Source of the DNA: a virus
Direction: 5' to 3' (one strand)
DNA length: 64,000 bases
IMG/VR virus record: IMGVR_UViG_3300022752_000038
Location: 31,042-95,041 of that record
This document shows positions 12,488 to 59,796 of this stretch, one piece after another. The position numbers and the translations under genes are program-made. Within the stretch, counting starts at the first letter, position 1. Every line of letters begins with the position of its first letter. Under the pieces are notes generated by a model. That model was not told the DNA's origin. It searched no databases and worked only from the letters and a program-made list of their open reading frames with translations.

Positions 12488-12502
12488 TAAAAGGAGTTAT
12501 AA

Positions 12503-39664: not shown

Positions 39665-39701
39665 ATTTATTAAGATAAATTGAAAATAGTTTATATATTG
39701 C

Positions 39702-39709
39702 TATAAATA
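39702..39709 (+). promoter_or_regulatory. TATAAATA motif, T4-late-like, + strand
   Basis: CTATAAATAAAA lies nine bases before ATG 39719 and is an exact T4 late promoter octamer on the coding strand. A TATATT box lies upstream as well (39694-39699). It is the only clear + strand copy noticed. Confidence 0.35.
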
Positions 39710-39718
39710 AAAAATACT

Positions 39719-41741: not shown

Positions 41742-41742
41742 T

Positions 41743-42636: not shown

Positions 42637-42644
42637 AGAAATAC

Positions 42645-43226: not shown

Positions 43227-43252
43227 ATTTTAATTATGTGGAAAATTTAGAT

Positions 43253-44026
43253 ATGGAAAATAACAAGCCGATAAAAGTTTTATTTTTAGTCATGTACTCT
43301 GGAGAAGGAGATTATGATAAATGTATCGAATCTGCTAAAAATCAGATTGGTATAGAACCGTATTTTTACGAGGTGAGACACCAGCCGTTAATGAATGCTC
43401 ATTATGAAATATATTCTTATTGGAATGAACATAGAGATGAGTATGATATGTTCGTAAAATTAGATGCCGATTTTGTTTTATACAATGATACAAAGATTAT
43501 TGACGTATATAACGCTATGAGTAAAACAAATTTAGCAATACTATGTGTATGGGCTGATGATTTTTTACGTAAACGTCTAATTCCCGGAATGGTTTTTGGT
43601 AATAAGCATTGTACATTTAACGTTAATAATGTAATTAACGGCGAAAAGGCAGTCTATGACACAGGCATGTATGTCATTGAAGACGGATATCGTTTTGACG
43701 ATACTTCTATAGCCCAAAGTTTAGCTCCATCGGCATTGCACGGTCATTATTCATATCCTATACAATTATTTGCGCAAGGTGTTAAACGTAGATTACGTAG
43801 AGGGGGTCAGTGGGATATATATCAAATAGTGCAGCATGAATTTAATAATAATCCGGATAAATTAAGATTTATGTTTTTAATCGGCTGGGCTTTAGCTGAA
43901 AATGTATTATCTAACGACTATAACTACACGGATAAGAAATTTAATGAATATTTTACCAAAGTTAATGAGTTAGTTAATACAACAGACCATGGGTATAAAG
44001 TTTCCAATATACTTAATAATCTATAG
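43253..44026 (+). CDS. GT-A type glycosyltransferase-like protein (257 aa)
   Basis: ATG 43253 is chosen over GTG 43238, which would add five residues. The N-terminus IKVLFLVMYSGEGDYDKCIE and the MFVKLDADFVLYNDT block with its D-x-D near 73 match GT-A folds. The C-terminal part is less clear. It ends before a leaderless promoter-like site. Confidence 0.6.
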   Translation: MENNKPIKVLFLVMYSGEGDYDKCIESAKNQIGIEPYFYEVRHQPLMNAHYEIYSYWNEHRDEYDMFVKLDADFVLYNDTKIIDVYNAMSKTNLAILCVWADDFLRKRLIPGMVFGNKHCTFNVNNVINGEKAVYDTGMYVIEDGYRFDDTSIAQSLAPSALHGHYSYPIQLFAQGVKRRLRRGGQWDIYQIVQHEFNNNPDKLRFMFLIGWALAENVLSNDYNYTDKKFNEYFTKVNELVNTTDHGYKVSNILNNL

Positions 44027-44033
44027 TTAACGG

Positions 44034-44062
44034 TTGTTTTTTAATAGAAAAGTTATTATATT
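44034..44062 (+). promoter_or_regulatory. Promoter inside the glycan island
   Basis: TTGTTTTTTAA followed by TATATT (44057-44062), ending six bases before ATG 44069, the same geometry as the leaderless sites. The upstream element is weak. Confidence 0.45.
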
Positions 44063-44068
44063 AACCAT

Positions 44069-44812
44069 ATGAAAAAGAATGTAGTATTTTTTACTGTGAT
44101 GGATCAGGCTCCGGATAATATGGAGTATAAACAATGGTGTTTCGAAAGTTGGAATTATTGGGCTAAAAAGCATAATGTAGAAATATTTGTACTAGATACA
44201 CCATTATACGATAAAGCTTTAATGAAGCCTACTTGGCAGCGTTGGCACGTTTTAGAGATTCTAGAAGCTAACGATATTAATTATGATCAAGTAGCATTAG
44301 TCGATGCTGATACATTAATTCATCCAGACGCTCCTAATTTCTTTGAGTCGACTGATCACGAATTCTCGGCAGTTCAGGATGATATAATGGTAGAATGGGT
44401 ACATAATAGTATTGAAGGATATAAAGATTTCTTTACCGATACTAATATTGATTGGACTACATATTTCAATTGTGGATTTGTAGTTATTAACGAAAAACAT
44501 AAAGCTCTATGTAAACAAATTACTGAATTTTATTATGCTAACTTAGAAGAACTTCGTAATAGGCAGCATAATACAGTAAAGAAAGGTTCAGATCAGACTC
44601 CTGTTAATTATATGGCAAATGCATTTGGTAAAGTTAATTTGTTAAATAAGAAATGGAATTTTACTCATCTTCATTTAAGAGGAGTGCTTAATCAAATGCT
44701 ACCTAAAGTCGGATATATATATCACTTTAATGGATTTGATAAAACTCAAAGAGATTCGATAATGAATCAATGTTGGACTTTATTAAAACAATATTCTAAT
44801 GTACAAAACTAA
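44069..44812 (+). CDS. GT-A glycosyltransferase (247 aa)
   Basis: VVFFTVMDQAPDNMEYKQW at the start, QVALVDADTLIHPDAPNFF with a clear D-x-D near 77, and FNCGFVVINEKHKAL near 133 match nucleotide-sugar transferases of the GT-A fold. It overlaps the next gene by 14 bases. It starts at a predicted leaderless transcript. Confidence 0.72.
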   Translation: MKKNVVFFTVMDQAPDNMEYKQWCFESWNYWAKKHNVEIFVLDTPLYDKALMKPTWQRWHVLEILEANDINYDQVALVDADTLIHPDAPNFFESTDHEFSAVQDDIMVEWVHNSIEGYKDFFTDTNIDWTTYFNCGFVVINEKHKALCKQITEFYYANLEELRNRQHNTVKKGSDQTPVNYMANAFGKVNLLNKKWNFTHLHLRGVLNQMLPKVGYIYHFNGFDKTQRDSIMNQCWTLLKQYSNVQN

Positions 44813-45761
44813 ATTCGCAATAGGATGCTTGGTTCAGTGGTATGAGCTCGATATTATACCATTGTATATACAAAGTTTACATGAAGCTATACAATCATAT
44901 AAAGGTGAAGTTATAGTCGACGTAATTGTTTCTATGAATCAAAATTTAGAAAAAACAAATTTAACTGAAGATGAATTTTGGCTAATAGAAGAAAAAATTT
45001 ATGATGCGTTTAAAAATTCGTTAGGCATAAATAATTACCAAATTAAAAGCACTGAATCGTTATATACGATTGCTGATTATAGAAGAGAGTTTAATGAAAA
45101 ATATTGCGAACATGTCGATGTATTAATTTGGGGTGAGTCTGACATGTTAGTACCTAAACAAATGTTTATTGTATTAGATAGTTTACACCAATCACAATCA
45201 ACTGCGACTCCTAAATATTTAGCGACATTCGGAATTTGTAAAATGTGGGACGAATCTTGGAAAGTGTTAGAACATCCCGAGTTTACTAATATGAGTCATT
45301 CAGACTCTAAAAATGATTGGTGGGGTGTAAATTATGATATGAATATTGACGAAATGAATTCATTTAATGATAAAATTTCTGAATTAGACGTTAAGATAAT
45401 CGAGACACATAAATTTAATGGATGTGGGTTGGTAATATCATCAGAAATAATTAAATCGGGTGTCAATATTCCTAGGTCAGCATTTTTTGTTCATGAAGAC
45501 ACTGCATTTATGCTTATGACTCAAAAAGTATTAGGCCATATACCCCAATATCACTTTAAAAATATTTTATTAGTTCATAACAGAAAGCATAGAGACAAAA
45601 GATCGTATATCGCAGGAGAGTCTGGAGAGACTGTCGGTCAGCGGCGAAATAGTAATAAATGGTATACGGTTGCAAATCGGATGTGTGAGCAAAATGTATA
45701 TAACATATTCAATCCAAAATATAAATCATTTACATGGGAGGATGTATGGAACTCAATTTAA
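44799..45761 (+). CDS. Probable glycosyltransferase (320 aa)
   Basis: IDVLIWGESDMLVP-like block (VDVLIWGESDMLVPKQM, near residue 107) and FFVHEDTAFMLMTQKVLG near 228 resemble GT-A transferases. The start lies inside the upstream gene. Family uncertain. An AGGA site before the next start lies within its last codons. Confidence 0.5.
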   Translation: MYKTKFAIGCLVQWYELDIIPLYIQSLHEAIQSYKGEVIVDVIVSMNQNLEKTNLTEDEFWLIEEKIYDAFKNSLGINNYQIKSTESLYTIADYRREFNEKYCEHVDVLIWGESDMLVPKQMFIVLDSLHQSQSTATPKYLATFGICKMWDESWKVLEHPEFTNMSHSDSKNDWWGVNYDMNIDEMNSFNDKISELDVKIIETHKFNGCGLVISSEIIKSGVNIPRSAFFVHEDTAFMLMTQKVLGHIPQYHFKNILLVHNRKHRDKRSYIAGESGETVGQRRNSNKWYTVANRMCEQNVYNIFNPKYKSFTWEDVWNSI

Positions 45762-46414
45762 CTGTAGCGATTGATGATATACATCCAGAGAAAGATTGGG
45801 GTCTACCTGGCGATGAATGTATGGAATACTTAGATTCTTTACATAAAGAGTTTGGTACTAAATTTACATTATTCATACCTAGTAACTATCATAGGCAATA
45901 TCCTTTAAGTGAACATAAGGATTGGATTGATTGGCTCAAGTCATTAGGTTATTTTGAACTAGCAGCCCATGGACATTATCATGCATGTAGACGTACTGAT
46001 ATAGGCGAATGTGAATTTTTTGAATTAGATAATGACATTAATGTCACGGAACGTATACAAATGATACTTAACGAATGGCAAAAAGTCAATCATATACCAG
46101 TCGGCTGGAGAAATCCTGGATGGTTAGCTCACCCGACAGCCGTTAAACATTTAGGTAGGCATTTTAAATATGCAGCTGTACATTATGAGCATAACCATAA
46201 TTTAGTATGGGATTGTAAGATGATATTTGGAGCAGACGGTATACATGAATCAGATATTGGTATACATGACGGAGCTTTAATGTTTCAAAGCCATATAGCT
46301 GGCGATTGGAATAAAAACTCATGGAATCGTGCTAATTACGAACAATTTAGACATTCTTTGTTACATATACATAGCCAGCATAAAATAACAAACAAATTTA
46401 TCATGGAACTATAA
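45746..46414 (+). CDS. Polysaccharide deacetylase-like protein, NodB fold (222 aa)
   Basis: ATG 45746 has an AGGA site eight bases upstream and is preferred to ATG 45734. TVAIDDIHPEKDWG carries the D-D motif near the start and FELAAHGHYHACRR supplies the metal-binding H-x3-H near residue 73. GWRNPGWLAHPT and DGALMFQSHIAGDW follow. It probably removes acetyl groups from a sugar polymer. Confidence 0.68.
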   Translation: MELNLTVAIDDIHPEKDWGLPGDECMEYLDSLHKEFGTKFTLFIPSNYHRQYPLSEHKDWIDWLKSLGYFELAAHGHYHACRRTDIGECEFFELDNDINVTERIQMILNEWQKVNHIPVGWRNPGWLAHPTAVKHLGRHFKYAAVHYEHNHNLVWDCKMIFGADGIHESDIGIHDGALMFQSHIAGDWNKNSWNRANYEQFRHSLLHIHSQHKITNKFIMEL

Positions 46415-47226
46415 TGAATACTAGAATATTGGTTATCGGTAACGGTTACATAGCAGACAACTTTATTTGTTCTGTTAAGGATAAATATGATGTAACGGTA
46501 TATGCTCGTTTAAAAAATATAGAGTATAGTAATGTAACATACATTTATGATTTAGTAGAACATATTAATATGTTAACGAATGATTTTGATCATATCTATA
46601 TTTTATTCGGGCATTCTAGACCAAACACTACGTCAACACTCAACGAAGTTATATATTCGAATGTATATCTCATATCAAAAATACTAGATTTTGCTAGTAC
46701 TAACATGTCTAAGATATTCTATCCAGCTACGTCCTTAGCTCTGACTGAATCGACACGTAAGTTAAATTATTATTCGTATTCGCATACGATAGCAATTGAT
46801 ATGATACGTCAGTCTAAGCTTATATATACTATTTGCTATTTGCATAACATATACGGCAGTCTAACAGGAGCGCCAAAAAAGAATAAAATGGTAATTGATA
46901 ATTTTATAGATTGTTATCACGATGGCCGGCATGTACAACTAATTAATGACGGCATTCAACGACGTATATTTACGCATATATCAGATGTTATAGATTACAT
47001 GATATTAAATTTAGACTGTACTACTAATAAAGAGGTTAATTTAGTTAAAGATAATGTAGTGTATTCTGTTAAAGAAATTGCAGAACTGTTAGAACTACAA
47101 ACTGTAAGTGTAAATAATACGTTATATTCATTAGATGACCCATATACATTAGCAATTGACGACTTAGGTATATGGAAAGAACAAATTGATATTAAAGATT
47201 GGATTACAAATAAAGTAAAAATATGA
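46414..47226 (+). CDS. SDR-fold protein with degenerate active site (270 aa)
   Basis: The NAD motif is ILVIGNGYIADNFI. The usual catalytic Y-x3-K is replaced by YSYSH in NYYSYSHTIAIDMI near residue 122. RRIFTHISDVIDYM near 180 fits the substrate domain of the epimerase family. It may be an inactive or altered epimerase. Start overlaps the preceding stop. Confidence 0.62.
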   Translation: MNTRILVIGNGYIADNFICSVKDKYDVTVYARLKNIEYSNVTYIYDLVEHINMLTNDFDHIYILFGHSRPNTTSTLNEVIYSNVYLISKILDFASTNMSKIFYPATSLALTESTRKLNYYSYSHTIAIDMIRQSKLIYTICYLHNIYGSLTGAPKKNKMVIDNFIDCYHDGRHVQLINDGIQRRIFTHISDVIDYMILNLDCTTNKEVNLVKDNVVYSVKEIAELLELQTVSVNNTLYSLDDPYTLAIDDLGIWKEQIDIKDWITNKVKI

Positions 47227-47957
47227 AAACAATAGCTTATTTCTTTTGGACTGGAAAAATTAATGATATGTTTACGAATTGTATAGATTCGTATAAAAAG
47301 TTAAACTTTTTCGATGAATGGTATATATTAACAGACAATGATTCTATTTTAGAGTATTATCCTGATTTTAAAATTATTAGAGTGCCTGATGACTGGACAA
47401 CTAAGCGTTTTTATCTTAAAATGAGCGAATTACGTAAGATACGAGCTAATACAGGAGATCGTATAATGGTATTGGATGGCGATACCATGTGTTTAAAACC
47501 AATCGATGGATTCTTTGTCGATGGATATGATATTATTTTAACAACTCGTCATAGAGTCGATACATTTAAAATTAATGCAGGCGTATGGGGTTACATTAAA
47601 AATAATGTAACAGATGCATTTTTAAATCATGCTGCTGTTACAATAACAAATCCAATTAGTTGGTATCCATATTATAACTTAAAAATTAATCATCCATGGG
47701 ATCGTGCTAGATCATTAACTAATATTGATTGGCCCGTCGATCAAGATTATTTAGAGATAGTATATAATCATCGGGATGATTTGTTAACTAATATCAATAT
47801 TGATGCTAAAGTATATGTACACGAAAAAGGTATATACAATTGCATTGTAAGTCATTTAGAACATCCTGCAGTAGCAGAAGTTGATCCTTATATTGTACAT
47901 TTTAAAAATATGTCAAGCGTAAAATGGAAAACTGAAAATAACATGTTATATAATTAA
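47223..47957 (+). CDS. Glycosyltransferase, GT32-like (244 aa)
   Basis: KTIAYFFWTGKINDMFTNCI at the start, WYILTDNDSI, and MVLDGDTMCLKPIDGF with the D-x-D near residue 82 match the GT-A glycosyltransferase group with sugar-chain acceptors. Overlap with the previous gene is four bases. Confidence 0.68.
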   Translation: MKTIAYFFWTGKINDMFTNCIDSYKKLNFFDEWYILTDNDSILEYYPDFKIIRVPDDWTTKRFYLKMSELRKIRANTGDRIMVLDGDTMCLKPIDGFFVDGYDIILTTRHRVDTFKINAGVWGYIKNNVTDAFLNHAAVTITNPISWYPYYNLKINHPWDRARSLTNIDWPVDQDYLEIVYNHRDDLLTNINIDAKVYVHEKGIYNCIVSHLEHPAVAEVDPYIVHFKNMSSVKWKTENNMLYN

Positions 47958-47960
47958 ACT

Positions 47961-48761
47961 ATGGAATTAAAAGATAAACTTTCGGTTATGGTTATGACAC
48001 ATATTATTAATGTGGCCACAGACCCATATTTAGATAATGAAATGATTATAACTACTATTCGTACGTCACACGATCGTATGAAGTTGCTAGGTGTCACATA
48101 CTACATTTATATAGATTCATTTTTTAAAGAAAACTATCCAGAATATTATGATATCTATAAACAAAATTTGTTAAAGAGATTCGACAAAGAATTATCAGAT
48201 ATCAATATAGTAATTGTACCTGATGCTACATCTACACAAAAGGGCAATTGGATCCATATGATAAATAACTGTAATACTCCGTATTTCATGTTTCTAGAAC
48301 ACGATTGGGAGTTTATAAAAGATATACCGACGGATACTATATTATCAGAAATGGATCGTTATGAAAATTTTTCGTATATACGATTTTCTAGGTGGCCCGC
48401 AGGACATGGGCAAGAACTAAGATGGGATAGGGCTCATGGGGCTATTTATGAAAAAGAAATGGTGATAGGGGCTGACGTAGATCTTCCATTAACAAGAGTA
48501 GGATTATACTCAGGCAATCCACATATTGTTAAAACAAAAAAATGTAAAGATTTTTATTTGCCTGTGATCTTAAAGCATTTTCCTTATATTGGCGATAGAA
48601 ATACATATTTAGAAAAAGAATTTTTAGGTATTATAGTACGTGATATACAAGTCCATGGACAACTTAAATCGCACGAAATATGGGGTACATTTTTATATGG
48701 ATCACTTCCAGCATTTGAACCAGTAATTACACATTTAGGCGATTGGTGTAGAAAATCTTAA
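47961..48761 (+). CDS. Glycosyltransferase-like protein (266 aa)
   Basis: LSVMVMTHIINVATDPYLD and YFMFLEHDWEFIKDIPTD near residue 110 suggest a GT-A fold, with an E-x-D in place of D-x-D. The C-terminal part (GAIYEKEMVIGADVDLP) is not recognised. It is three bases downstream of the previous gene. Confidence 0.52.
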   Translation: MELKDKLSVMVMTHIINVATDPYLDNEMIITTIRTSHDRMKLLGVTYYIYIDSFFKENYPEYYDIYKQNLLKRFDKELSDINIVIVPDATSTQKGNWIHMINNCNTPYFMFLEHDWEFIKDIPTDTILSEMDRYENFSYIRFSRWPAGHGQELRWDRAHGAIYEKEMVIGADVDLPLTRVGLYSGNPHIVKTKKCKDFYLPVILKHFPYIGDRNTYLEKEFLGIIVRDIQVHGQLKSHEIWGTFLYGSLPAFEPVITHLGDWCRKS

Positions 48762-48774
48762 TAAAAAGGATAAT

Positions 48775-49632
48775 ATGATTAAAATCGAAAAAGGTAAAAA
48801 GTATTTAGTAACAGGCGGCTCTGGATTTTTAGGCGTACCGTTAGTTAAATATATTATTGATAATGGCGGGGACGTACGTGTTATTTCACGTGATGAAGGA
48901 AAGTTAATAACTCTACGCGAATTATTTCCGTCTATAGAAATATATCCCGGGGACATTGCCGATGCATACGAAGTTAAACAAGCTATGCAAGGCATTAATG
49001 GCGTATTTCATTTAGCTGCATCTAAGCATGTTGGATTAGCAGAAACATTTGTCAGAGAGAATGTGAAAACTAATACTTTAGGGTCATTATATATTCTTGA
49101 AGAATCGTTACATATGGATTTAGACTTTGTATTAGGAATATCAACAGATAAGGCTGCACAAGTCTCTGGTGTATACGGAGCTACAAAATTATTAATGGAA
49201 CGTTTATTTACGCAGTATGAAAAATTAAATACAACCTGCAAATATAGAATTGTGAGATATGGCAATGTTTTATACTCAACAGGTTCAGTTCTATGTAAAT
49301 GGAAAGAATTGATCCGGCATGGCAAAGAAGTTATAGTCACTGAACCTAAAGCTACTAGGTTCTTTTGGAACGTAGATCAGGCTATAGAACTTATCGTAGA
49401 TTGCATGGAGAATGCGACTGATTCAACCCCGTACTGCCCGATAATGAAATCAATGAGTGTAGAAAATTTACTATATGCTATGATTGAGAAATACAGTAAC
49501 GGACAAAATATACCTATCAAGATCATTGGTTTACAGCCTGGCGAAAACATGCATGAAAAGGTTCTAGAACAAGGTCCATATTCTAACGAAGTCGATCAAT
49601 TTACTATCGAAGAAATTAAGCATTTGATATGA
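48775..49632 (+). CDS. UDP-sugar dehydratase/epimerase, PseB/CapD-like (285 aa)
   Basis: Extended SDR: YLVTGGSGFLGVPLVKYI, VFHLAASKHVGLAE, LGISTDKAAQVSGVYGATKL (T-D-K and Y-x3-K), and RYGNVLYSTGSVL match the 4,6-dehydratase group that makes keto-sugar precursors. AAAAGGATAAT precedes the ATG. It could start an unusual amino-sugar such as a pseudaminic-type precursor; the product is not determined. Confidence 0.8.
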   Translation: MIKIEKGKKYLVTGGSGFLGVPLVKYIIDNGGDVRVISRDEGKLITLRELFPSIEIYPGDIADAYEVKQAMQGINGVFHLAASKHVGLAETFVRENVKTNTLGSLYILEESLHMDLDFVLGISTDKAAQVSGVYGATKLLMERLFTQYEKLNTTCKYRIVRYGNVLYSTGSVLCKWKELIRHGKEVIVTEPKATRFFWNVDQAIELIVDCMENATDSTPYCPIMKSMSVENLLYAMIEKYSNGQNIPIKIIGLQPGENMHEKVLEQGPYSNEVDQFTIEEIKHLI

Positions 49633-50537
49633 AAATAGCTTTCTTTACAGAGATGGAGTTCAATGGTAAGATATCTAGAACTCATGATAATATGAGAGTT
49701 GAATTCGCATGGATGTGTGCGTTAAATGCGGATCATTATAATATCAGACAAATTCCTATTGACAAATATGATTTAGGTATAGTTATCATTCCTAAAAAGA
49801 ATCCTAATTTTAATATCGATGATCTAAAGTTAAGCTGTTTGAAGGTCGCGGTGATGCAAGAAGGGCCGAATTGGTACTGGCAAGATTATGATTTATCTAA
49901 ACAAATTTGGTATTTTAATACACTGACATCTGCAGATATTATTTTTACTCATAACAAGTCTGATCAGAAATATTATCAAGGACTAACAGCCCATCCGGAT
50001 GTGCGAGTAATGCCTTCATTAATGATTGAAGAGTCAATCGGTAAATTAACACAAGAAAATCGAAAGGGAGTTATTATTGGAGGTAATTTTGTATCTTGGT
50101 ATGGGGGATTTGATTCATTTATTATTGCACAAGAATTTGATAACGGTATAGTACATGCCCCTTCAATGGGAAGAAGGCAGCCTAGTGAAGAGCAATTGAT
50201 TAAACATTTACCTTATTTAAATTGGAAAGGATGGATGCACGAACTTAATAAATTTAAGTATGGCGTTCATTTAATGCGAACTCATGCAGCCGGTACATTT
50301 GCTCTTAATTGTGCATATCTAGGAATTCCTTGTATTGGATATAAAGGATTAGATACACAGGAAATATGTCACCCAGATTTAACTGTTAATGCGGGGGATT
50401 TATCGACGGCTAGAAAAATTGCTACAGACCTTAGGAATGATGAACAATTTTATTTATATTGTGCAGAGAAATGTCGACATCAATATCAATCATTTTACAC
50501 GGAACAAACGTTTTTAGAAAAATTTAACAATGAATAA
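49629..50537 (+). CDS. GT-B-like glycosyltransferase (302 aa)
   Basis: The C-terminal half has GYKGLDTQEICHPD after the hydrophobic CAYLGIPCI, and the N-terminal half is KIAFFTEMEFNGKISRTHDN. This matches a GT-B fold with a nucleotide-sugar site, though no close family is certain. ATGA overlap on the left. Confidence 0.52.
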   Translation: MKIAFFTEMEFNGKISRTHDNMRVEFAWMCALNADHYNIRQIPIDKYDLGIVIIPKKNPNFNIDDLKLSCLKVAVMQEGPNWYWQDYDLSKQIWYFNTLTSADIIFTHNKSDQKYYQGLTAHPDVRVMPSLMIEESIGKLTQENRKGVIIGGNFVSWYGGFDSFIIAQEFDNGIVHAPSMGRRQPSEEQLIKHLPYLNWKGWMHELNKFKYGVHLMRTHAAGTFALNCAYLGIPCIGYKGLDTQEICHPDLTVNAGDLSTARKIATDLRNDEQFYLYCAEKCRHQYQSFYTEQTFLEKFNNE

Positions 50538-51702
50538 AATTACATTTGTAATACCTAGTCGTAATAATCTAGAATTTTTGCGTTTAGCATATCAATCAAT
50601 ACGTAATTTGCGTACTAAGCATGAGATTATTATTTTAGATGATGCCAGTACAGATGGAACACTAGAATGGATAATTACGTTGCATGATGAGGATTTAATT
50701 CATTATCATAATCCAGGACCAACGCGTGTTGGTATAGTTGGTATGTTTGATAGAGGTATTGCAATGTCACGTACGGATATTATATTTGCTTTCCATGCAG
50801 ATATGATTGCGGGCCCGAATTTAGATACTAATATTTTAAAATATCTACAAAGAGGTATGGTCGTGTCTGCAACTCGTATAGAGCCTCCGTTACATCCGCC
50901 TGGCCCCGAAAAGATAACTCAAGCTTGGGGTAATGAGCCGCATGAGATTGATTTTCCAATACTTATGAATTCTATCAATCACTTTGAACGTGAGAATGCA
51001 AATAAAACTACGGAAGGTATTTTTGCTCCATGGTGCATGTATAAATCTGATTATTTAGCTATCGGCGGGCATGATGAGCTCTTCGCACCGCAAAGTAAAG
51101 AAGATTCTGATTTATTCAATCGTTTTGTACTGAACGGATATAACGTTATTCAGTCATGGGATGCATTAGTATATCATTTCACTAGTCGTGGTAGTAGATT
51201 TAATACATATGCAGGCGGCGCAGCGGGTAAAGATAGTGCAGAATGGCAATATACTACTAATAAAAATGCTCGTAACTTTATTCGTAAATGGGGACATTTT
51301 GTTAAGCACGATCAATTTATGAAGCCTATTATACCGCCTAAGTATGATATTGGATTCATAATTCATAACTGTACTGATCAATTGTTAAATGTTCTAGAAC
51401 CATGGTGTACTGATGTATATATTGATATGATACCAGATGAGTATATTGCTAAAGAGCAGATTAACACAAAATTTAAATTATCGGACCGTATACATAGCAC
51501 TCGATTAGGACCTAAACTCAATGATATTCTGGTTACAATTGACGGATCTAGATTTACTAATGAAGATTTTTATGTTATACAAGAACTAGCTACAATCATT
51601 AAACAAACAAATGATATAGGTGAATTTGCTATAGGCAATCTTAACATACGTATTAATAAGTTAACAACATACGAACATAATCTAATTAAAGCAAAAATAT
51701 GA
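50530..51702 (+). CDS. GT2 glycosyltransferase with an extra C-terminal domain (390 aa)
   Basis: The N-terminal half is classic GT2: ITFVIPSRNNLEFLRLAYQS, EIIILDDASTDGTLEW and FAFHADMIAGPNLD. About 130 residues at the end (IGFIIHNCTDQLLNVLEPWC and on) form a second domain of unknown role. Eight-base overlap with the previous gene. Confidence 0.78.
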   Translation: MNKITFVIPSRNNLEFLRLAYQSIRNLRTKHEIIILDDASTDGTLEWIITLHDEDLIHYHNPGPTRVGIVGMFDRGIAMSRTDIIFAFHADMIAGPNLDTNILKYLQRGMVVSATRIEPPLHPPGPEKITQAWGNEPHEIDFPILMNSINHFERENANKTTEGIFAPWCMYKSDYLAIGGHDELFAPQSKEDSDLFNRFVLNGYNVIQSWDALVYHFTSRGSRFNTYAGGAAGKDSAEWQYTTNKNARNFIRKWGHFVKHDQFMKPIIPPKYDIGFIIHNCTDQLLNVLEPWCTDVYIDMIPDEYIAKEQINTKFKLSDRIHSTRLGPKLNDILVTIDGSRFTNEDFYVIQELATIIKQTNDIGEFAIGNLNIRINKLTTYEHNLIKAKI

Positions 51703-52547
51703 ATATATTAGTTACGGGAGGAGCTGGATTTGTTGGTACCAATCTAATAAAAGAATTATTGAAACAAGGTCATACAGTCGTGTCAATTGACAATTACTCA
51801 ACTGGACTTAAATCTAATCATCAACAAGGATGTGTATATTATGAATATGATATACGTACAATAAATGATTATCGTGCATTTGGAAAATTTGACGTTGTAT
51901 ATCATTTAGCCGCTATTGCTCGTATACAGCCTTCATTTGATAATCCTGAAGAATATTTTACTACAAATGCAGCTGCTACAATGAAATTGGCTAAGTGGTG
52001 TAGTGCTGATAATATTCCGATTGTATATGCTGGCAGTAGTTCGCATCATTCCGGCAAGTTTAAAAACCCATATACGTTTAGCAAAGATATTGGCGAGGAG
52101 ATTATACGTTTATTTCAGATACATTACGGGTTGCAAGCTAGTATTGCTAGATTTTACAATGTATATGGCCCATATCAATTGACTGAAGGTAACTATTGTA
52201 CATTGATAGGAATATGGGAACGTTGTATACAAGATGGTCGACCATTAACTATATATGGCGATGGTACTAAACGCAGAGACTTTACACATGTAGAGGATAT
52301 TGTTAATGGTTTAATTAGTATTAATACAAAAAAAGCTTGGGGACATATATTTGAATTAGGCAGAGGAAAAAATCACTCGGTATTGGAAATAGCGCATATG
52401 TTTCAAAATGCGACTATAGCGTTTGGTCCGGATAGACCTGGCGAAGCACGAGAAACATTATGTGTAGATACAACAGCTCGAGATGTTTTAGATTGGCATC
52501 CAATTCGGGATATTCAAGACTATATTCATAATATTTATAACAAATGA
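51699..52547 (+). CDS. NAD-dependent sugar epimerase (282 aa)
   Basis: NILVTGGAGFVGTNLIKELL, VYHLAAIARIQPS and PYTFSKDIGEEII (Y-x3-K at about 126) are the SDR marks. RRDFTHVEDIVNGL near 190 is usual in UDP-sugar epimerases. It ends the glycan island, four bases into the following small gene. Confidence 0.85.
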   Translation: MNILVTGGAGFVGTNLIKELLKQGHTVVSIDNYSTGLKSNHQQGCVYYEYDIRTINDYRAFGKFDVVYHLAAIARIQPSFDNPEEYFTTNAAATMKLAKWCSADNIPIVYAGSSSHHSGKFKNPYTFSKDIGEEIIRLFQIHYGLQASIARFYNVYGPYQLTEGNYCTLIGIWERCIQDGRPLTIYGDGTKRRDFTHVEDIVNGLISINTKKAWGHIFELGRGKNHSVLEIAHMFQNATIAFGPDRPGEARETLCVDTTARDVLDWHPIRDIQDYIHNIYNK

Positions 52548-52934: not shown

Positions 52935-52942
52935 ATATTTAT
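52935..52942 (+). promoter_or_regulatory. ATATTTAT motif before the packaged-protein cluster
   Basis: ACATATTTATAGATAA ends 12 bases before ATG 52955. It would control the first of the capsid-targeting candidates. Confidence 0.5.
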
Positions 52943-52954
52943 AGATAAAAGAGT

Positions 52955-53509
52955 ATGATACGTTTAAAAGATCTTATCACAGAAGCTCAAATCACAGAGC
53001 ATTTACGATACCATATTAGCAAGGGTATATCTATACACGATAACGTATTCCGTTACGGGTCAGAAGCATATTGTAATTTAATGCTAGAAGCCAAACGTTT
53101 GTTGCGTGAAGGTAAATTGGAAACTGATGTGTATGACCGAGAGGTATTGTCTACCGATATCGGCGAATTTGGTTTATACGAGGGAGTGCGTGTACCATTA
53201 GACCTGCCAATGACAGAAGCAGAATATCAAGGTAAAGACGTGGACCTCAATAAACCAAAACGCGGCGGAGCTCGTAAATACTATGTGTATGTACGTAATC
53301 CAAAGACGGGCAATATCAAAAAAATATCATTCGGCGATACTACCGGATTGAGTGCCAAAATACGTAATCCAGAAGCACGTAAATCTTTTGCTGCACGCCA
53401 TCAATGTGATAAAAAGAAAGATCGTACCAAAGCTGGATATTGGGCATGTAATTTGCCTAGATATGCAAAGGGATTGGGTATGGGTTCTAACATGAATACT
53501 TATTGGTAA
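52955..53509 (+). CDS. Protein with capsid-targeting-like N-terminus and conserved phage C-terminal domain (184 aa)
   Basis: The N-terminus MIRLKDLITEAQ fits the T4 capsid-targeting pattern, with ITE-A a candidate prohead protease site. The C-terminal 85 residues, KYYVYVRNPKTGNIKKISFG then EARKSFAARHQCDKKKDRTK and GYWACNLPRYAKGLG, form a block I recognise from many phage proteins of unknown role; it is basic and may bind nucleic acid. The ATATTTAT site upstream supports late expression. Confidence 0.62.
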   Translation: MIRLKDLITEAQITEHLRYHISKGISIHDNVFRYGSEAYCNLMLEAKRLLREGKLETDVYDREVLSTDIGEFGLYEGVRVPLDLPMTEAEYQGKDVDLNKPKRGGARKYYVYVRNPKTGNIKKISFGDTTGLSAKIRNPEARKSFAARHQCDKKKDRTKAGYWACNLPRYAKGLGMGSNMNTYW

Positions 53510-53787
53510 TGCATCCATATACAGAACGTGTTAAAGGTTTAGTTTCTTATCGTACATTTGCAGCTGATACTGATGAAATGGATTTGATCTGGCATCGGGA
53601 CGCTGAAGATCGTTACGTAGAAGCACTACATGAGACGGATTGGCAATTTCAAATGGATAACGAATTGCCGGTACCGTTTAATGGTATAATCTATATTCCA
53701 AAAGAAACTATACATCGTGTAATAAAAGGAACCGGCGAATTACGTATAGCTATACATCGATGGGATGCTAGTTTTCAATACGATTAA
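53509..53787 (+). CDS. Cupin-like metal-binding protein (92 aa)
   Basis: ATG 53509 overlaps the preceding stop by one base (TAATG). LIWHRDAEDRYVEALHETDW, LPVPFNGIIYIPKETIHRVIKG (in pieces) and ELRIAIHRWD fit the short cupin family found in T4-like phages, with His residues for a metal. The substrate is not known. An alternative TTG start lies six bases upstream. Confidence 0.6.
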   Translation: MHPYTERVKGLVSYRTFAADTDEMDLIWHRDAEDRYVEALHETDWQFQMDNELPVPFNGIIYIPKETIHRVIKGTGELRIAIHRWDASFQYD

Positions 53788-53794
53788 CTTTTAT

Positions 53795-53827
53795 TTGTTA
53801 ATTTAAATGAAAGTTCATATATTAATG
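53795..53827 (+). promoter_or_regulatory. Promoter before the membrane protein gene
   Basis: TTTGTTAATTT and CATATATTAATG (53816-53827). TATATT ends five bases before ATG 53829; predicted leaderless, with a weaker upstream element. Confidence 0.5.
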
Positions 53828-53828
53828 T

Positions 53829-54167
53829 ATGAACTATATCATTGCAATACTATACGGCATATTAGCCCAGATAATTACTTTTTTACAATTACAAGGGCCG
53901 TATCGATTTGAATCTTTACGCAATCATCCCAACTTGTTACTGCTTGTAGCAGTACCGATAGCTTGGCTGTTTACCAAATCAACACATTACTTTTATATAG
54001 CCTCTGGAGGCGAGCTTTGGCCCGGTAGGCTTATCGGATTTGGTATTGGTATGATTGTGTTTAGTTTAATGACAAACTTGTTATTTAAAGAGGTATTAAC
54101 GGCTAAGACATTGGTAACTATTGGTCTATCAATCATTATAGTCTGTATACAAATCTATTGGAAATAA
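53829..54167 (+). CDS. Small integral membrane protein, four helices (112 aa)
   Basis: Four hydrophobic spans are visible: IIAILYGILAQIITFL, LLLLVAVPIAWLFT, RLIGFGIGMIVFSLM and VTIGLSIIIVCIQIYW. The last two, with GRLIGFGIG and KEVLTAKT, recall small multidrug-resistance folds, but similarity is weak. It stands within the late cluster with a leaderless promoter of its own. Function unknown. Confidence 0.55.
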   Translation: MNYIIAILYGILAQIITFLQLQGPYRFESLRNHPNLLLLVAVPIAWLFTKSTHYFYIASGGELWPGRLIGFGIGMIVFSLMTNLLFKEVLTAKTLVTIGLSIIIVCIQIYWK

Positions 54168-54176
54168 TGTACATGT

Positions 54177-54184
54177 ATATTTAT
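54177..54184 (+). promoter_or_regulatory. ATATTTAT motif before the acidic protein gene
   Basis: ATGTATATTTATAAGAAAGG ends 15 bases before ATG 54200. AAAGGATAAC forms a good ribosome site. Confidence 0.5.
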
Positions 54185-54199
54185 AAGAAAGGATAACAC

Positions 54200-55084
54200 A
54201 TGCCGAATACATCAAATTATTTTGATAATGTTACTATAGGACAATTTGTGTTAACAGGTGTACCTGTAAAAGTTTATGTCGATGGCACATATCTAACAAT
54301 TACAGATCCTGATGATATTGAAGATTCTATTTACGGGTTTGGAATTGATGATGACGGCGCTGTGCATAATTTCGATTATCGTATGATCGATCATCTGCTA
54401 GTGGCCAATCAGCATTTAGATTTTGAAACATATAAAAAGGCGATGGAGCCAAAAGCTCCTGCCGCTCCTGCATCAGCTGCAGAAAAAAAGCCTGAAGAAG
54501 AAAAGACGGGAACACCGGAAGAACCTAAAAAAGAAGAGAGTGTAATGAAACTTAAATCCTTGATCAAAAACAATGTACTTGAAGATGTCGCTGCAGATAA
54601 AAAGAAACTAGTGGATCTTAAAAAACAAAAGACAAAATTAGCTAAAGATATAGCAACACTCACTTTAAGTGTTGCCGATGAGGAAGCTAAAGCAGCTGAA
54701 GCTGGCGTCACTGAAAATAGCATAACTAGTTTATCTGAACCGTATACTATTAACGTAGGCGATATGATTCAAAACACTAATACAAGTTGTCAACATTACG
54801 GATCGACAGGCATTGTACAAAGCGTAACAGCGCTGCCAGATGATATGGGCGTAGTAGCTAAATACGTCGTAACTAATTCGGGCGACACATATGCTCCAGG
54901 TGATATTTTAACAAAGACCATAGACCAATTAGAACCTATGGATTACGAAGAAGAAGATTATGATGATATGAGTGATGAGATGGATGACTGGGACGTGACC
55001 ATGGCAGACGGACTAGATGATGATGATGACTATGTCGACTACGAAGAAGAAGATGAAGATTACGAAGAAGAGGATGAAGATTAA
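54200..55084 (+). CDS. Acidic protein with internal capsid-targeting-like segment (294 aa)
   Basis: A first domain (VPVKVYVDGTYLTI, YGFGIDDDGAVHNFDY) is followed by an alanine-rich linker, then at residue 116 an internal methionine MKLKSLIKNNVLEDV that resembles the capsid-targeting peptides. A coiled coil (KKKLVDLKKQKTKLAKDIAT) comes next, then MIQNTNTSCQHYGSTGIVQS, a small domain I have seen in marine phage proteins. The last 45 residues are nearly all Asp and Glu with Tyr. The tail may mimic DNA. GAGAGTGTAATG before 54545 could start a shorter form. Confidence 0.58.
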   Translation: MPNTSNYFDNVTIGQFVLTGVPVKVYVDGTYLTITDPDDIEDSIYGFGIDDDGAVHNFDYRMIDHLLVANQHLDFETYKKAMEPKAPAAPASAAEKKPEEEKTGTPEEPKKEESVMKLKSLIKNNVLEDVAADKKKLVDLKKQKTKLAKDIATLTLSVADEEAKAAEAGVTENSITSLSEPYTINVGDMIQNTNTSCQHYGSTGIVQSVTALPDDMGVVAKYVVTNSGDTYAPGDILTKTIDQLEPMDYEEEDYDDMSDEMDDWDVTMADGLDDDDDYVDYEEEDEDYEEEDED

Positions 55085-55764
55085 TGATTCGTTTACGTGA
55101 CATAATAACCGAATCGGCACAGCCGCAGTTTGAGCCAATAAAACTAGGATTCAAGTTTGATGACTATGAGCCACATTTTGATGCCGAGACTATGCGTACG
55201 CATTACAATAAACATTACAAAGGCTACATAGAAAAACTAAACAAGGCCGTAAAGGACGAACGTATACCGATAGTAGTTAATCATGATGAACTCGATATAC
55301 GGCCAATGTTATCATCAGTTAGTCAATATAGTGCTACGGTTCGTAACAACGGCGGCGGATATTACAATCATACGTTATTTTTTAATAACCTCAATCCAGA
55401 ACATAAAGGTAAGATACAAGACGGACAACTTAAAACGTTAATTGAAAAGCAATGGAAATCTGTTGATAAGTTTCAAGAGGCGTTTACGCAAGCGGCACTA
55501 GACTTGTTTGGTTCTGGTTGGGTATGGCTAATGTATAACAACGGTATGTTAAATATCGCTACTACTGCTAATCAAGATAATCCATATATGGATATAGTAC
55601 GTATATCAGGCGATATATTATTAGGTTTAGATGTTTGGGAACATTCCTATTATCTCAAATACAAAAACGACCGCGAACGATATGTTAACGCATTTTTTAA
55701 ATTAATATGCTATCAAGCAGCTGAAGAACGTTTAGAACGTAGTATTAACAAATCTACATATTAA
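55084..55764 (+). CDS. sod: Fe/Mn superoxide dismutase with capsid-targeting-like N-terminus (226 aa)
   Basis: The N-terminus MIRLRDIITESAQ fits the capsid-targeting pattern. The rest is a full Fe/Mn superoxide dismutase: YEPHFDAETMRTHYNKHYKG (first His ligand), GGGYYNHTLFFNNLNP (second His), FGSGWVWLMYNNG, and LLGLDVWEHSYYLKYKNDRE (Asp and His ligands). All four metal ligands are present, so activity is likely. The start overlaps the acidic gene stop by one base. If packaged, it would enter the cell with the DNA and remove superoxide. Metal preference cannot be told. Confidence 0.88.
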   Translation: MIRLRDIITESAQPQFEPIKLGFKFDDYEPHFDAETMRTHYNKHYKGYIEKLNKAVKDERIPIVVNHDELDIRPMLSSVSQYSATVRNNGGGYYNHTLFFNNLNPEHKGKIQDGQLKTLIEKQWKSVDKFQEAFTQAALDLFGSGWVWLMYNNGMLNIATTANQDNPYMDIVRISGDILLGLDVWEHSYYLKYKNDRERYVNAFFKLICYQAAEERLERSINKSTY

Positions 55765-55770
55765 TGGACA

Positions 55771-56004
55771 GTGATAGTAAAACGCAGCAATACAAAACGA
55801 AAATGGTGGACAACAACGGCATTAATGCTCGCGATGTTTTTCAATCCATTCGGTTTCGACGCATTATTTGCGCTCATCATGGACTGGACGGGTTCATATT
55901 GGATTACGGACGCCGTGTTCTATGGCCTCTCGGCATTATGCTTTGGATGTTATTTACTGCTCTCACGTAACACAGACTATGAAACTACACGAAGCACGCG
56001 GTAA
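55771..56004 (+). CDS. Small membrane protein (77 aa)
   Basis: The GTG at 55771 gives VKRSNTKRKWWTTTALMLAM, then FFNPFGFDALFALIMDWTGS and YGLSALCFGCYLLLS: two membrane spans with a basic N-terminus. I prefer this frame over a competing one at 55764-55970, which lacks such structure. The end overlaps the HAD gene by 26 bases. Function unknown. Confidence 0.6.
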   Translation: MIVKRSNTKRKWWTTTALMLAMFFNPFGFDALFALIMDWTGSYWITDAVFYGLSALCFGCYLLLSRNTDYETTRSTR

Positions 56005-56494
56005 GAGACTTTTCGTCTTTGATTTTGATGATACATTAGTACATTCAGAAGCATTTGTCTATGTTAACAAGCAAGACGGAAGTAGAATACAAATGACACC
56101 CGCAGACTATGCAGTGTATCGTCCAGAGTCTGGAGATCAATTTGATTATTCTGATTTTAATCGTATGTTACGTAATCCGAAAATTATCAAAGACAATGTA
56201 CGACTAATGAAATTGGCTATGCGAAATCCTACAAACAAAGTTACTATATTAACGGCCCGGGCGTTAGCATTTCCTATACGTCATTATTTTAAAATGGAAC
56301 ATGGTATACAGCCGTATGTAGTTGCGTTAGGTACTGGAAATCCTCAAGCAAAGTCTGGATGGATTGCCGATCACTTAGACAAAGGATATACAGACGTATT
56401 TTTTATAGACGATTCGCCTGCTAATGTAGCGGCAGTACGATCACTATCAAAACAATATCCAGACGCTAGAATTAGATCAATAATTGCTAAATAA
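55979..56494 (+). CDS. HAD-family phosphatase (171 aa)
   Basis: ATG 55979 begins MKLHEARGKRLFVFDFDDTL. Motif I is FDFDDTLVH, motif II VTILTARAL, a Lys follows in NPQAKSG, and motif IV is VFFIDDSPAN. It should be an active phosphatase, perhaps on a nucleotide or DNA end. The first residues (LHE-A) even resemble a short protease site. An upstream start (55868) would lie in another gene and is rejected. Confidence 0.8.
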   Translation: MKLHEARGKRLFVFDFDDTLVHSEAFVYVNKQDGSRIQMTPADYAVYRPESGDQFDYSDFNRMLRNPKIIKDNVRLMKLAMRNPTNKVTILTARALAFPIRHYFKMEHGIQPYVVALGTGNPQAKSGWIADHLDKGYTDVFFIDDSPANVAAVRSLSKQYPDARIRSIIAK

Positions 56495-56508
56495 AAATAA
56501 AGTGCTAT

Positions 56509-57648
56509 ATGAAACTAAAAACAATTGTTAAGGAGATACTTTCAGAAATTACTTTAATGTCTGGTGATGCGAGCACTGATACATCATGGAGTGCACTGAG
56601 ACAGTTATCACGTGAATGGCCAGGATTTAATAAAACTATGGAGATAGCATATAGCCGAGATTGGACCAATATGGGCACGGGCTGGGATGATGATGTGGAT
56701 CGTTCGTATGATCCTACACATGCCAAAGTACGAGCTTTCATAAAAGATGCAGCAGTTGATAGTCAAGGATCGTTGTATATTTGTAGGTATAAATATGATG
56801 ATCGTATAAATCATGTATTATTTAATTTAGCGGCTCCTAATCTACGTACGATGTATGTCGGGAAGATTGAAACAAATGCTAGTACTGGCGAATACAGTAT
56901 GAAGACATTGTTTGGTATAGATTCGCAAGTAGTGCACTGGAGTATGGTCACTGATGAATATAAAGGTAAAAAGTACGGTGCATTTTTATATGATACACTG
57001 TTGTACATGTACGGAGTGTTAGAAAGTGATACTATTTTATACTCAGGAAGCCTCAAGATGTGGATGCATCATTTGTTTAATAAGGGACGATTAGGTGCGG
57101 CCACAATTAATTATTCCGTTAGTAGCGGAACGCAATCAGGCGATAAAGTATTAGTATTACCAATATCGGCACGTGAAGTACAAGACAAATCAATATTAAA
57201 AGATATAGGATCTATAGTAGTATTTCATTCGAACATACCACCACAATTATCCAAATTAATTAAACTTACCAAAGGACTTAGCGTCTTTAATGATTCATTG
57301 AGTATCATGTATGCCAATATCAATATAGATGAATTAGGATTTGTAGTTTCAATTGAACGTACCCGAACCAATGCTCCATTGTATTCTGATCAGGCAGATG
57401 CAAATCCAGAAGAAAACTATTCATTGTTAGACTATCTGGAAGTTTGTAGTTTTTCAGAATTATTGTCGGTACATAACGGCATACGACTTAGTAAAGATAG
57501 TACGGTTACTGAAGAACTAATAGCTCCCGATGTAGAATATTGGAACGAGCCTAAACAAAACAAAACAAAAAAATTGATTGTTTATGCAAATAATGGCATC
57601 TTGGTAGTAGAACCTAACGGTGATAATGTTAAATATACGTTGATATAA
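56509..57648 (+). CDS. GNAT-like protein with capsid-targeting-like N-terminus (379 aa)
   Basis: MKLKTIVKEILSEIT fits the capsid-targeting pattern (V-K-E and L-S-E sites). Residues about 140-185, QVVHWSMVTDEYKGKKYGAF then LYDTLLYMYGVLESDTILYS, resemble the acetyl-CoA loop region of GNAT enzymes. The rest is without known motifs. It is in the late cluster with the superoxide dismutase. If packaged it could acetylate host targets, but the fold call is weak. Confidence 0.5.
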   Translation: MKLKTIVKEILSEITLMSGDASTDTSWSALRQLSREWPGFNKTMEIAYSRDWTNMGTGWDDDVDRSYDPTHAKVRAFIKDAAVDSQGSLYICRYKYDDRINHVLFNLAAPNLRTMYVGKIETNASTGEYSMKTLFGIDSQVVHWSMVTDEYKGKKYGAFLYDTLLYMYGVLESDTILYSGSLKMWMHHLFNKGRLGAATINYSVSSGTQSGDKVLVLPISAREVQDKSILKDIGSIVVFHSNIPPQLSKLIKLTKGLSVFNDSLSIMYANINIDELGFVVSIERTRTNAPLYSDQADANPEENYSLLDYLEVCSFSELLSVHNGIRLSKDSTVTEELIAPDVEYWNEPKQNKTKKLIVYANNGILVVEPNGDNVKYTLI

Positions 57649-57692
57649 TGCTATAAATTTGGTAGGCCTAACATGAAAACAAAAAGTAATGT

Positions 57693-58262
57693 ATGATAAA
57701 GCTAATTAAAATAATACAAGAGTCATCTAGGTCTGGCGCAATGACTGGTACACAGGAAAAAGGTCTGAATACCGGACTACGTGTAATACACACGAAGTAT
57801 GCAGATGAATACAGAGATCCTATAACACCACAAACACCTCACAGTGAAATTAACTACGGCGGATGTGGGATATTTGCAAAACTACTTTATTACAATCTAC
57901 GCAAATATCTATCTGTCACTCCGGACATCGTATGCTTTGATTTTCCTTCATCACGTCCGTTACCACGTGGAGGAATAAACGAGTACAAAAGTTTAGGTGA
58001 GTTTAACCAGTATGGGTTTACATGCGTTCATATAGCATTAAAAATTAAAGATTATTATATTGATTCCTCTGGGGTACATAAACTTCAGTGGTTTAAAAAG
58101 CAATACAATATGAATTTAGTAGAACATACAGGAATGTCTATACAAACATTAAGCAGATGGGTTGCTACTGGAGATGATTGGAATAATACTTTTGATAGAT
58201 ACACAATTGGTGATATTAATACGGATTTAGTAACTCTATTCAAAAAAATAACCAACAAGTAA
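57693..58262 (+). CDS. Papain-like cysteine enzyme with capsid-targeting-like N-terminus (189 aa)
   Basis: MIKLIKIIQESSRSG fits the targeting pattern (I-Q-E-S). The middle has NYGGCGIFAKLLYYNLRKYL, a helix-capping Cys as in papain-fold enzymes, and FTCVHIALKIKDYYIDSSGV, which supplies His and Asp. So a Cys-His-Asp triad of a NlpC/papain or transglutaminase-like enzyme is plausible. As a packaged enzyme it could cut or deamidate a host protein on entry. The target is unknown. Confidence 0.6.
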   Translation: MIKLIKIIQESSRSGAMTGTQEKGLNTGLRVIHTKYADEYRDPITPQTPHSEINYGGCGIFAKLLYYNLRKYLSVTPDIVCFDFPSSRPLPRGGINEYKSLGEFNQYGFTCVHIALKIKDYYIDSSGVHKLQWFKKQYNMNLVEHTGMSIQTLSRWVATGDDWNNTFDRYTIGDINTDLVTLFKKITNK

Positions 58263-58263
58263 C

Positions 58264-59796
58264 ATGCCGTATACATATAAAAAACAAGGCAATAAATACT
58301 GCGTCTATAAAAAGGATGGTGGAAAGCAAGTAGGATGTACTACAGGCACTAAAGCCGCGTTGAAACGTTACTTATCAGCACTTCATATGGCAGAGACTAG
58401 CGAATCATTGCAACAGACATTAATAGAAACAGAAATGATTCTAGAAGATCTCCGCGCCTGGTTTGGTAAAGGTGGTAAAGGTGGAGTAGGCGGAGGCGGA
58501 TGGGATCGTTACAATAGCAAAGGTGATCGAGTTGGTAAATGTGGTGATGCTGATGAAGGCGATGCATATGCAGCTTGTCTAAGCAAAGAAAAGGCGCGTA
58601 AGTTAGGAAAAGCTGGTCGAGCCGCATTTGTTAAACGTAAAAGAGCTGCACAACGCAAAGGTGGTGATGCCGTAAAGGGTGGAGAACAATCAAAAGGTCA
58701 AAAACCAATAAAAGTGAAAACAGGTATAAATGAAATCGGCGAAGCATCAGCGAGGCCATACAAATATAAAGTAGATTTTGAGGAAACTGATCCTGAATTT
58801 TCAGAGATACAGTACAAGTTTAAAACTGACTCAAATCTAGAATATCAAATAGCAATAGCTCAGGTCAAACCGCTACGCAATAGTAAAAACGTTCGATTAG
58901 TAGTAGCTTTTAGGACTACTCAAGGTACTTATAACACTGATACAAATAGGAACGAACAATTCAGAATAATGGCTACTGTGGTAGCAGCAACTAAAGAGTA
59001 TTTGTCCAAAACACCAAATGTTACAGAAATAAGTTTTACACCATCAAAAGCAGATATGGGTGATATGCGCCGGGCAAACTTATATAAAGCATATATTGCA
59101 AAACAGATACCGGGCGCAAAAATAAATATATTTAGTGATGGTAGATATGTAGTAACTTTACCAAAAGTAAAAAAAGAGAATTTAGATCCCAAAACATTTA
59201 AAGATACAGGAAAATCATCTCCATATGGATCCGGCTATCAAGCCATAAGAGAATATACTCCTAGTAATCCAGGTAATATCGATAAAGCTATACGAGAAAT
59301 AGAAGCATTAGGTATACGCAATCCAATCAACCCTAAAGAAATAGTAATAGATAATTCGGTTATAATCGAAGTTTCGAATTGGGACAAACGTTTATGGTTT
59401 TCTAGTTTGTATTCAATTGAGCGCGGACAAGGTAATGCAACTCGAATAATGCAGAAAATTGTAGATATCGCTGACAAATATAAAGTTACTATTGCATTAG
59501 ATCCACATCCGTTCGGTACAGGTACGGGAAGATTATCTAGGTCACAGCTAGTTAAATTTTACAAGAAATTTGGATTTGAATTCGAAGATGGTCAAGAAGA
59601 TTTTGGTGACATGGAACGTATAGCTGAACGCATCAATTTATTTGTTGAACGTAATATTCCCACTAACCCAGAGAAATGGTCTTACTATAAATCACAAGCC
59701 AAAAAGAAATTTGACGTATATCCATCGGCATATGCTAATGCATGGGCCGCTAAAATGTATAAAAAGGCAGGCGGCGGCTGGAGAAAAGGAAAATAA
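58264..59796 (+). CDS. Multidomain protein: basic phage motif, DUF5872-like, GNAT, and C-terminal motif (510 aa)
   Basis: The first 40 residues (KKQGNKYCVYKKDGGKQVGC) are a small lysine-rich repeat-like module. Then WDRYNSKGDRVGKCGDADEG and CLSKEKARKLGKAGRAAFVK form a DUF5872-like block. The GNAT-type middle has ERGQGNATRIMQKIVDIADK (acetyl-CoA loop) and LVKFYKKFGFEFEDG. The end WSYYKSQAKKKFDVYPSAYA and NAWAAKMYKKAGGGW recur in many phage proteins. Fused parts of this kind suggest a virion-linked or packaged protein. It probably acetylates something. Confidence 0.6.
   Translation: MPYTYKKQGNKYCVYKKDGGKQVGCTTGTKAALKRYLSALHMAETSESLQQTLIETEMILEDLRAWFGKGGKGGVGGGGWDRYNSKGDRVGKCGDADEGDAYAACLSKEKARKLGKAGRAAFVKRKRAAQRKGGDAVKGGEQSKGQKPIKVKTGINEIGEASARPYKYKVDFEETDPEFSEIQYKFKTDSNLEYQIAIAQVKPLRNSKNVRLVVAFRTTQGTYNTDTNRNEQFRIMATVVAATKEYLSKTPNVTEISFTPSKADMGDMRRANLYKAYIAKQIPGAKINIFSDGRYVVTLPKVKKENLDPKTFKDTGKSSPYGSGYQAIREYTPSNPGNIDKAIREIEALGIRNPINPKEIVIDNSVIIEVSNWDKRLWFSSLYSIERGQGNATRIMQKIVDIADKYKVTIALDPHPFGTGTGRLSRSQLVKFYKKFGFEFEDGQEDFGDMERIAERINLFVERNIPTNPEKWSYYKSQAKKKFDVYPSAYANAWAAKMYKKAGGGWRKGK

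Follow-up and report, generated by a model that had tools for sequence, protein, structure and literature searches.

Few injected phage proteins are known, and most of them come from T4 and giant phages. In T4, the internal proteins IPII and IPIII begin with MKTYQEFIAE, followed by A after the cleavage point. The first 10 residues of IPIII are enough for its incorporation, with positions 4 and 7 involved in targeting and positions 8 and 10 in processing, while the gp21 protease cleaves after L/I-x-E (PMC9026906). Black suggested that such a capsid targeting sequence (CTS) is a means by which T4-like phages bring various proteins into the head (PMC9026906). Head and ejection proteins of phiKZ and SPN3US carry propeptides with an S/A-x-E motif, which a gp21-related protease cuts off behind Glu (PMC9026906), and the N-terminal signal of P1 DarB is sufficient for loading a reporter into the head (PMC9024508). 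Here, we analyze a short N-terminal peptide, termed the class A tag, in the uncultured T4-like phage represented by IMG/VR record IMGVR_UViG_3300022752_000038. The window, i.e., the whole stretch analyzed, comprises 64,000 nucleotides (bases 31042-95041 of the 95,041-base linear record).

The class A tag is a 10-residue peptide of the approximate form M-I-K/R-L-x-x-I/L-I/L-x-E. It heads the proteins encoded at 52955, 55084, and 57693, and length variants are present on 56509 and 18065. By analogy with T4, we assign a probability of about 0.8 to the reading in which the tag is a CTS of the internal-protein type: its carriers would be loaded into the prohead, cut by the protease, and injected as cargo.

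Class A tags and tagged proteins in the window

A sequence-only reading had attributed a shared N-terminal peptide to five open reading frames (ORFs). All five exist at the proposed starts, but the consensus then written fits 52955 alone exactly: LK is replaced by LR in 55084 and by LI in 57693, 56509 lacks one residue, and 18065 contains an extra one after Met. Two profiles were used to evaluate the tags. The first, which was run over the whole record, had been trained solely on the tags of superoxide dismutases (SODs), a single one of which came from this phage. Its three top N-termini were 52955 (21.9), 55084 (20.6, included in the training set), and 57693 (10.2); a score of at least 10 was reached by 2.5e-4 of 23,669 internal windows. 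The second profile, built from tagged families outside this genome, picked out the N-termini of four of the 387 ORFs (52955, 55084, 56509, and 57693) and not one of the 525 internal methionines.

The tags and the other window features located by coordinates as tags, enzyme body, motif, or polyprotein all lie on the + strand. MIRLKDLITE (52955-52984; scores 21.9 and 20.1) precedes a protein of 184 residues (52955-53509), whose homolog G003:139377-140009 is also tagged (MIKLKDILLE; 44% identity over 211 residues). MIRLRDIITE (55084-55113) heads an Fe/Mn superoxide dismutase (55084-55764). MIKLIKIIQE (57693-57722; scores 10.2 and 14.6) is found on a 189-residue protein (57693-58262); its sole relative, from L357, starts with MIRLQNILQE, leaving positions 1, 2, 4, 7, 9, and 10 unchanged. 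The short variant MKLKTIVKE(ILSE) (56509-56547; score 15.0 allowing one missing residue) belongs to a 379-residue protein (56509-57648) with the N-terminus MKLKTIVKEILSE, for which no relatives were found in IMG/VR. The variant MHIKLKSLIEGIVRE (18065-18109) starts a 296-residue protein (18065-18955), related to L012:12125 (MPIKLKSILKE; 40% identity over 304 residues); in L357:2322, the same ParB-like body comes after an internal MKLKSLMSE, itself preceded by a small domain at the N-terminus. The pattern had also been proposed inside two further products, and both contain internal segments of this kind. The 294-residue acidic protein 54200-55084 contains MKLKSLIKNNVLE (about 54545-54583), a tag-like segment semi-conserved in its relatives (MKLGDLLKE in L014 and KLGNILKE in L015), while the 10991 product contains MKKTELQQIIREEVRKMLTE, which represents a second tag class.

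The assignment of the 55084 body as superoxide dismutase is confirmed by PF02777 (E-value 1.1e-33; 115.7 bits at a cut-off of 20.9) and PF00081 (E-value 3.8e-18; 66.2 bits at a cut-off of 27). The body (55114-55764) contains His40, His96, Asp183, and His187 (precursor numbering), which we take, from knowledge of the family, to be the four metal-ligand positions; all are invariant in 18 phage SODs. The SOD domain begins past the tag (query residue 16 corresponds to residue 3 of the PDB chain). In the structure model, with a mean predicted local distance difference test (pLDDT) of 85, tag residues 1-11 score below 50, and the tag is predicted to lie outside the fold, either unstructured or loosely helical. 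Ten tagged phage SODs, found by SOD homology, were aligned: Glu10 is present in nine, and the tenth (L046) is one residue shorter. More distant phage SODs possess another leader of 40-60 residues or a fused HEWxH domain; I/L-x-E is located right before the enzyme in all those examined, with the exception of the leaderless L023.

Some SODs show further domain arrangements. In L026, L033, L047, L052, L063, L066, and L069, the enzyme is fused behind a HEWxH-motif domain resembling a metallopeptidase (the motif itself was seen in L026, L033, and L063). In L079:7860-9419, a phage SOD is joined to a C-terminal domain via VKFKQIISE, a tag-like segment within the chain. The freshwater contig MW462191, which also encodes a SOD, looks like bacterial DNA and was not used; the SODs of large Pseudomonas and Vibrio phages were too distant for their leaders to be compared.

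The SOD is the only securely identified tagged body in the window. The ParB-like label given to 18065 falls below the Pfam cut-off (PF08857; 17.9 bits against 23.6, E-value 0.0036). The labels 'papain-like' and 'GNAT-like' remain weak: no meaningful family match was obtained for 56509 or 57693, and the C/H/D spacing in 57693 was recognized by eye (model pLDDT 35).

Recurrence of the tag and independence from its cargo

In IMG/VR, at least 120 stretches match a degenerate DNA pattern encoding M-I-K-L-K-[DNSG]-[IL]-[ILM]-x-E, compared with one for a control in which the codons were reordered. Fewer than 30 open codons lie upstream of 75 of the 83 pattern matches examined among those listed, so the matches correspond to gene starts. 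After removal of the first 12 residues, 112 tagged proteins (the matches listed and the SOD relatives) fall into 55 unrelated body families by BLAST. The tag is also present in two isolates, Flavobacterium phage immuto (L006:24569 and L004:2261) and Microcystis phage Mel-JY01 (L009:10276, 10923, and 12056). Besides SOD, the bodies include an RNase T-type exonuclease, a NUDIX domain, a lysozyme-like protein, DUF5824, DUF5872, ADP-ribosyltransferase-like proteins, and an OmpA-like domain, as well as a zeta-toxin-like kinase with a lower-scoring tag. A set of 16 viral control records yielded no tag. Across 84,980 genomes of bacteria and archaea (257 Gb), the pattern turns up in 20 stretches, most of which are chance ORFs of 8-22 codons; since it is nearly absent as a real start, a general bacterial N-terminus was ruled out. 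Real-looking tagged cargo in this set is limited to three proteins (L496:1602, L496:2239, and L494:7780) on two contigs binned as Flavobacteriaceae or unnamed bacteria. These contigs are probably misbinned phage DNA, and their binning may hint at the host group.

Codons vary synonymously within the tag (e.g., TTA, CTA, CTC, and CTT for Leu4), hence the constraint acts on the peptide, and a regulatory or translational signal at the DNA level was ruled out. The same variation bears on the idea that the tag is a recombination relic, a 5' gene end spread together with its ribosome-binding region and lacking any function as a peptide. Seven adjacent genes in G007 with near-identical tags are what spread by recombination or duplication predicts. 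However, codons and upstream sequences differ, both the SODs and the 57693 pair retain the amino-acid pattern despite drift elsewhere, and internal copies of the tag precede the same bodies; we regard the relic as scarcely credible.

The attached bodies provide further evidence of modularity. One phosphatase-like protein (55868) lacks the tag in this genome, whereas its L015 counterpart, with 42% identity, carries it. The product of 58264-59796 is an apparent cargo polyprotein with an N-terminal small domain, followed by GGWDRY, PYKYK, possible GNAT-like, and C-terminal DUF5872-like domains, calls that depend partly on weak Pfam matches. Its PYKYK and DUF5872-like domains exist as separately tagged proteins in other phages, the last domain as a stand-alone tagged protein in L099. 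An internal tag copy, IKVKTGINE (58708-58734), missed in the sequence-only reading, precedes the PYKYK domain and aligns with the N-terminal IKLKDILTE of a G007 protein (41% identity over 157 residues, E-value 2.8e-31). Given these arrangements and that of the 18065 body, 58264 appears to string together several units of cargo. PYKYK is thus found behind three leaders, namely MIKLKDILTE (G007, class A), MKKTELQQIIREEISKIIGE (L381, class B), and the internal IKVKTGINE, and in each case the cargo homology begins just past the glutamate.

Common descent of the five window proteins was ruled out, as their bodies are without similarity. The preference for a shared signal expressed in the sequence-only reading holds for the wider set as well: the tag heads dozens of unrelated bodies, a homolog of one body is untagged here, and the tag ends, at the glutamate, where homology begins.

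The second class was found starting from MKKTELQQIIREEVRKMLTE, an internal tag (about 11354-11413) in the 202-residue protein 10991-11599 that agrees with the class B consensus from IMG/VR, MKKSELRQIIREEI.KVLNE. Class B tags are longer than class A and head at least 131 body families in IMG/VR, with up to eight matches within one 14-kb stretch; the codon-permuted control covers the class A pattern alone. Short genes headed by the class B peptide MKKSELRQIIREE form arrays of five to eight in L409 (626-2237), L422 (205-7279), and L432 (4514-6642). Another class B-like N-terminus, MKTNELRSLIRTQILKE, is located upstream of the window (L002:1062-1655; record position 1062). Three cargo families were found with both classes, which therefore seem interchangeable.

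We lean towards a broader view, in which a large group of uncultured T4-type phages would share a portable head-loading code. It would comprise at least two interchangeable classes (MIKLKDILxE and MKKSELRQIIREEIxKVLNE) and well over a hundred families, partly arranged as protease-separated polyproteins, and would make a phage-specific set of injected enzymes readable from sequence.

Head assembly genes, proposed mechanism, and alternatives

Upstream of the window, the record encodes a head and tail module of the T4 type (terminase large subunit, portal, protease, major head protein, tail sheath, and tube). The search for a gp21-type protease and a scaffold, proposed along with the tag, was successful for the former: an S77 prohead protease is present in the same record (G000 9991-10596; PF03420 E-value 1.1e-25, phrog_207 head maturation protease E-value 5.6e-52), and a genome lacking such a protease, which would have counted against the proposal, is not what was found. 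An S77 protease was detected in six of six tag-bearing records of at least 85 kb, compared with one of nine random records of that size (p = 0.0014), and in eight of nine class B-bearing records of at least 100 kb. The major head protein shares 60% identity with its counterpart in Microcystis phage Mel-JY01 and 56% with the one in Flavobacterium phage immuto. Its propeptide contains a hydrophobic-x-E followed by (A/T)N, kept in the window phage and four relatives (five phages), as expected if the same protease acts there.

By analogy with T4, the 10-residue tag would anchor a newly made protein to the scaffold core during prohead assembly. The S77 prohead protease would then cut after Glu10 (I/L-x-E), with loss of the peptide, and the mature enzyme would stay in the head with the DNA and enter the next host cell at infection, where it might act as an effector. 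The proposed cargo comprises the SOD, the ParB-like protein, the proteins encoded at 52955 and 57693, and the domains that make up the 58264 polyprotein. We can only guess that the SOD, once injected, protects the incoming genome or the infected cell against superoxide.

The tag might instead be a localization or assembly signal unrelated to the head, acting, for example, at a membrane or a replication compartment, with Glu as a part of an amphipathic helix. Indeed, the tag alone is predicted, with low confidence, as a short helix at residues 4-11. Such a role does not account for the association with the S77 protease, the invariant I/L-x-E end, the homology boundary past Glu, or the shared end of the otherwise differing leaders of distant SODs, and we find it quite improbable. 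A somewhat different possibility is that the tag does target the prohead core, while the cargo serves head assembly or DNA condensation, as T4 IPIII and core proteins do, and includes no host effectors. IPIII influences head assembly in T4 (PMC9026906). Many tagged bodies are small and charged, and the 54200 product is acidic like a core protein. On the other hand, SOD, exonuclease, NUDIX, and ADP-ribosyltransferase-like enzymes have no evident assembly function, and cargo content differs among related phages, unlike assembly genes. An assembly role of the cargo is therefore considered unlikely.

Several observations weigh against a T4-type CTS with injected cargo. The tagged bodies are mostly without a known family, and some consist of only 50-70 residues. 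18065 and 56509 are off the 10-residue register. The residue after the tag Glu is variable and not mostly Ala. The tag profile recognized none of the T4 internal proteins in the 60-82 kb region of T4, so the register but not the residues is common to T4. The scaffold part of the search yielded an acidic 288-residue protein (G000 12168-13034) encoded immediately ahead of the major head protein, the right position for a scaffold; it has no PHROG match, so the assignment as a candidate core protein is by position only. Finally, open papers yielded no virion proteome for Flavobacterium phage immuto, which is the nearest isolate.

If the tag is a head-loading signal, a 10-residue pattern would flag candidate injected proteins directly from sequence in many uncultured phages. 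Superoxide dismutase, nucleases, NUDIX hydrolases, and ADP-ribosyltransferase-like enzymes would be among the first proteins that the cell meets, and a ready-made loading tag would be available for phages other than T4.

The genomic surroundings of the tagged genes have features of their own. The motif ATATTTAT, claimed to lie upstream of most tagged genes, precedes 18065 and 52955, together with 54200 and 10991, but not 55084, 56509, or 57693, i.e., two of the five tagged genes only. Ahead of 52955, with which the cluster of tagged genes begins, it takes the form of the promoter-like ATATTTATA (52935-52943). The window contains 13 copies of ATATTTAT(A) on the + strand (e.g., at 4365, 8211, 10976, 18039, 35008, 52935, and 54177), 11 of which are located within 60 nucleotides upstream of a gene start, though the window is 96% coding. 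By contrast with these copies, TATAAATA, the late motif of T4, is underrepresented (3 occurrences versus 10.9 expected). ATATTTAT looks like the phage's own promoter box, the reverse complement of that of T4. Right before the tagged genes, about 17 kb (35047-52547) are occupied by apparent sugar-transfer and sugar-epimerase genes, and a comparable block is annotated in immuto. Apparent GroES-like (21882-22181) and GroEL-like (31051-32670) chaperonin genes are likewise shared with immuto.

Comparison with known head-loading systems

No papers containing the tag peptides, and no survey of such tags, were found in open full texts; priority is not established. Among the described systems, the CTS of T4 IPI, IPII, and IPIII resembles the class A tag in being a 10-residue N-terminal peptide with Glu10, hydrophobic residues at positions 4, 7, and 8, and an I/L-x-E end. 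In both cases the peptide is carried by unrelated bodies and the genome encodes an S77-family protease. In the logo of tag family representatives, Leu4 is present in 51 of 53, Ile/Leu7 in 52 of 53, and Leu/Ile/Met8 in all 53, while position 9 and those past 10 are free; the logo, including Glu10, is partly imposed by the search pattern, but the SOD tags, retrieved via SOD homology, agree with it. The two peptides differ in the residues beyond the key positions (MIKLKDILTE here versus MKTYQEFIAE in T4). Moreover, the cargo here includes recognizable enzymes and many more families, with up to about ten tagged genes per genome, and tags are also located inside polyproteins.

T4 Alt, a virion ADP-ribosyltransferase cut by gp21, is similar as a head-borne enzyme class, and ADP-ribosyltransferase-like proteins occur among the tagged families; in the window, however, the tagged enzyme is a SOD, and no ADP-ribosyltransferase is tagged. 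The phiKZ and SPN3US proteins have in common with the tagged proteins a propeptide ending at Glu and a gp21-related protease, whereas the window phage combines I/L-x-E with a fixed 10-residue leader and a T4-type head module. Their S/A-x-E motif is not found here, as position 8 is Leu or Ile in all in-register tagged SODs and Leu, Ile, or Met in all tag representatives. P1 DarB likewise has an N-terminal packaging signal, but the Dar proteins possess no common consensus, whereas a single consensus extends here across dozens of families.

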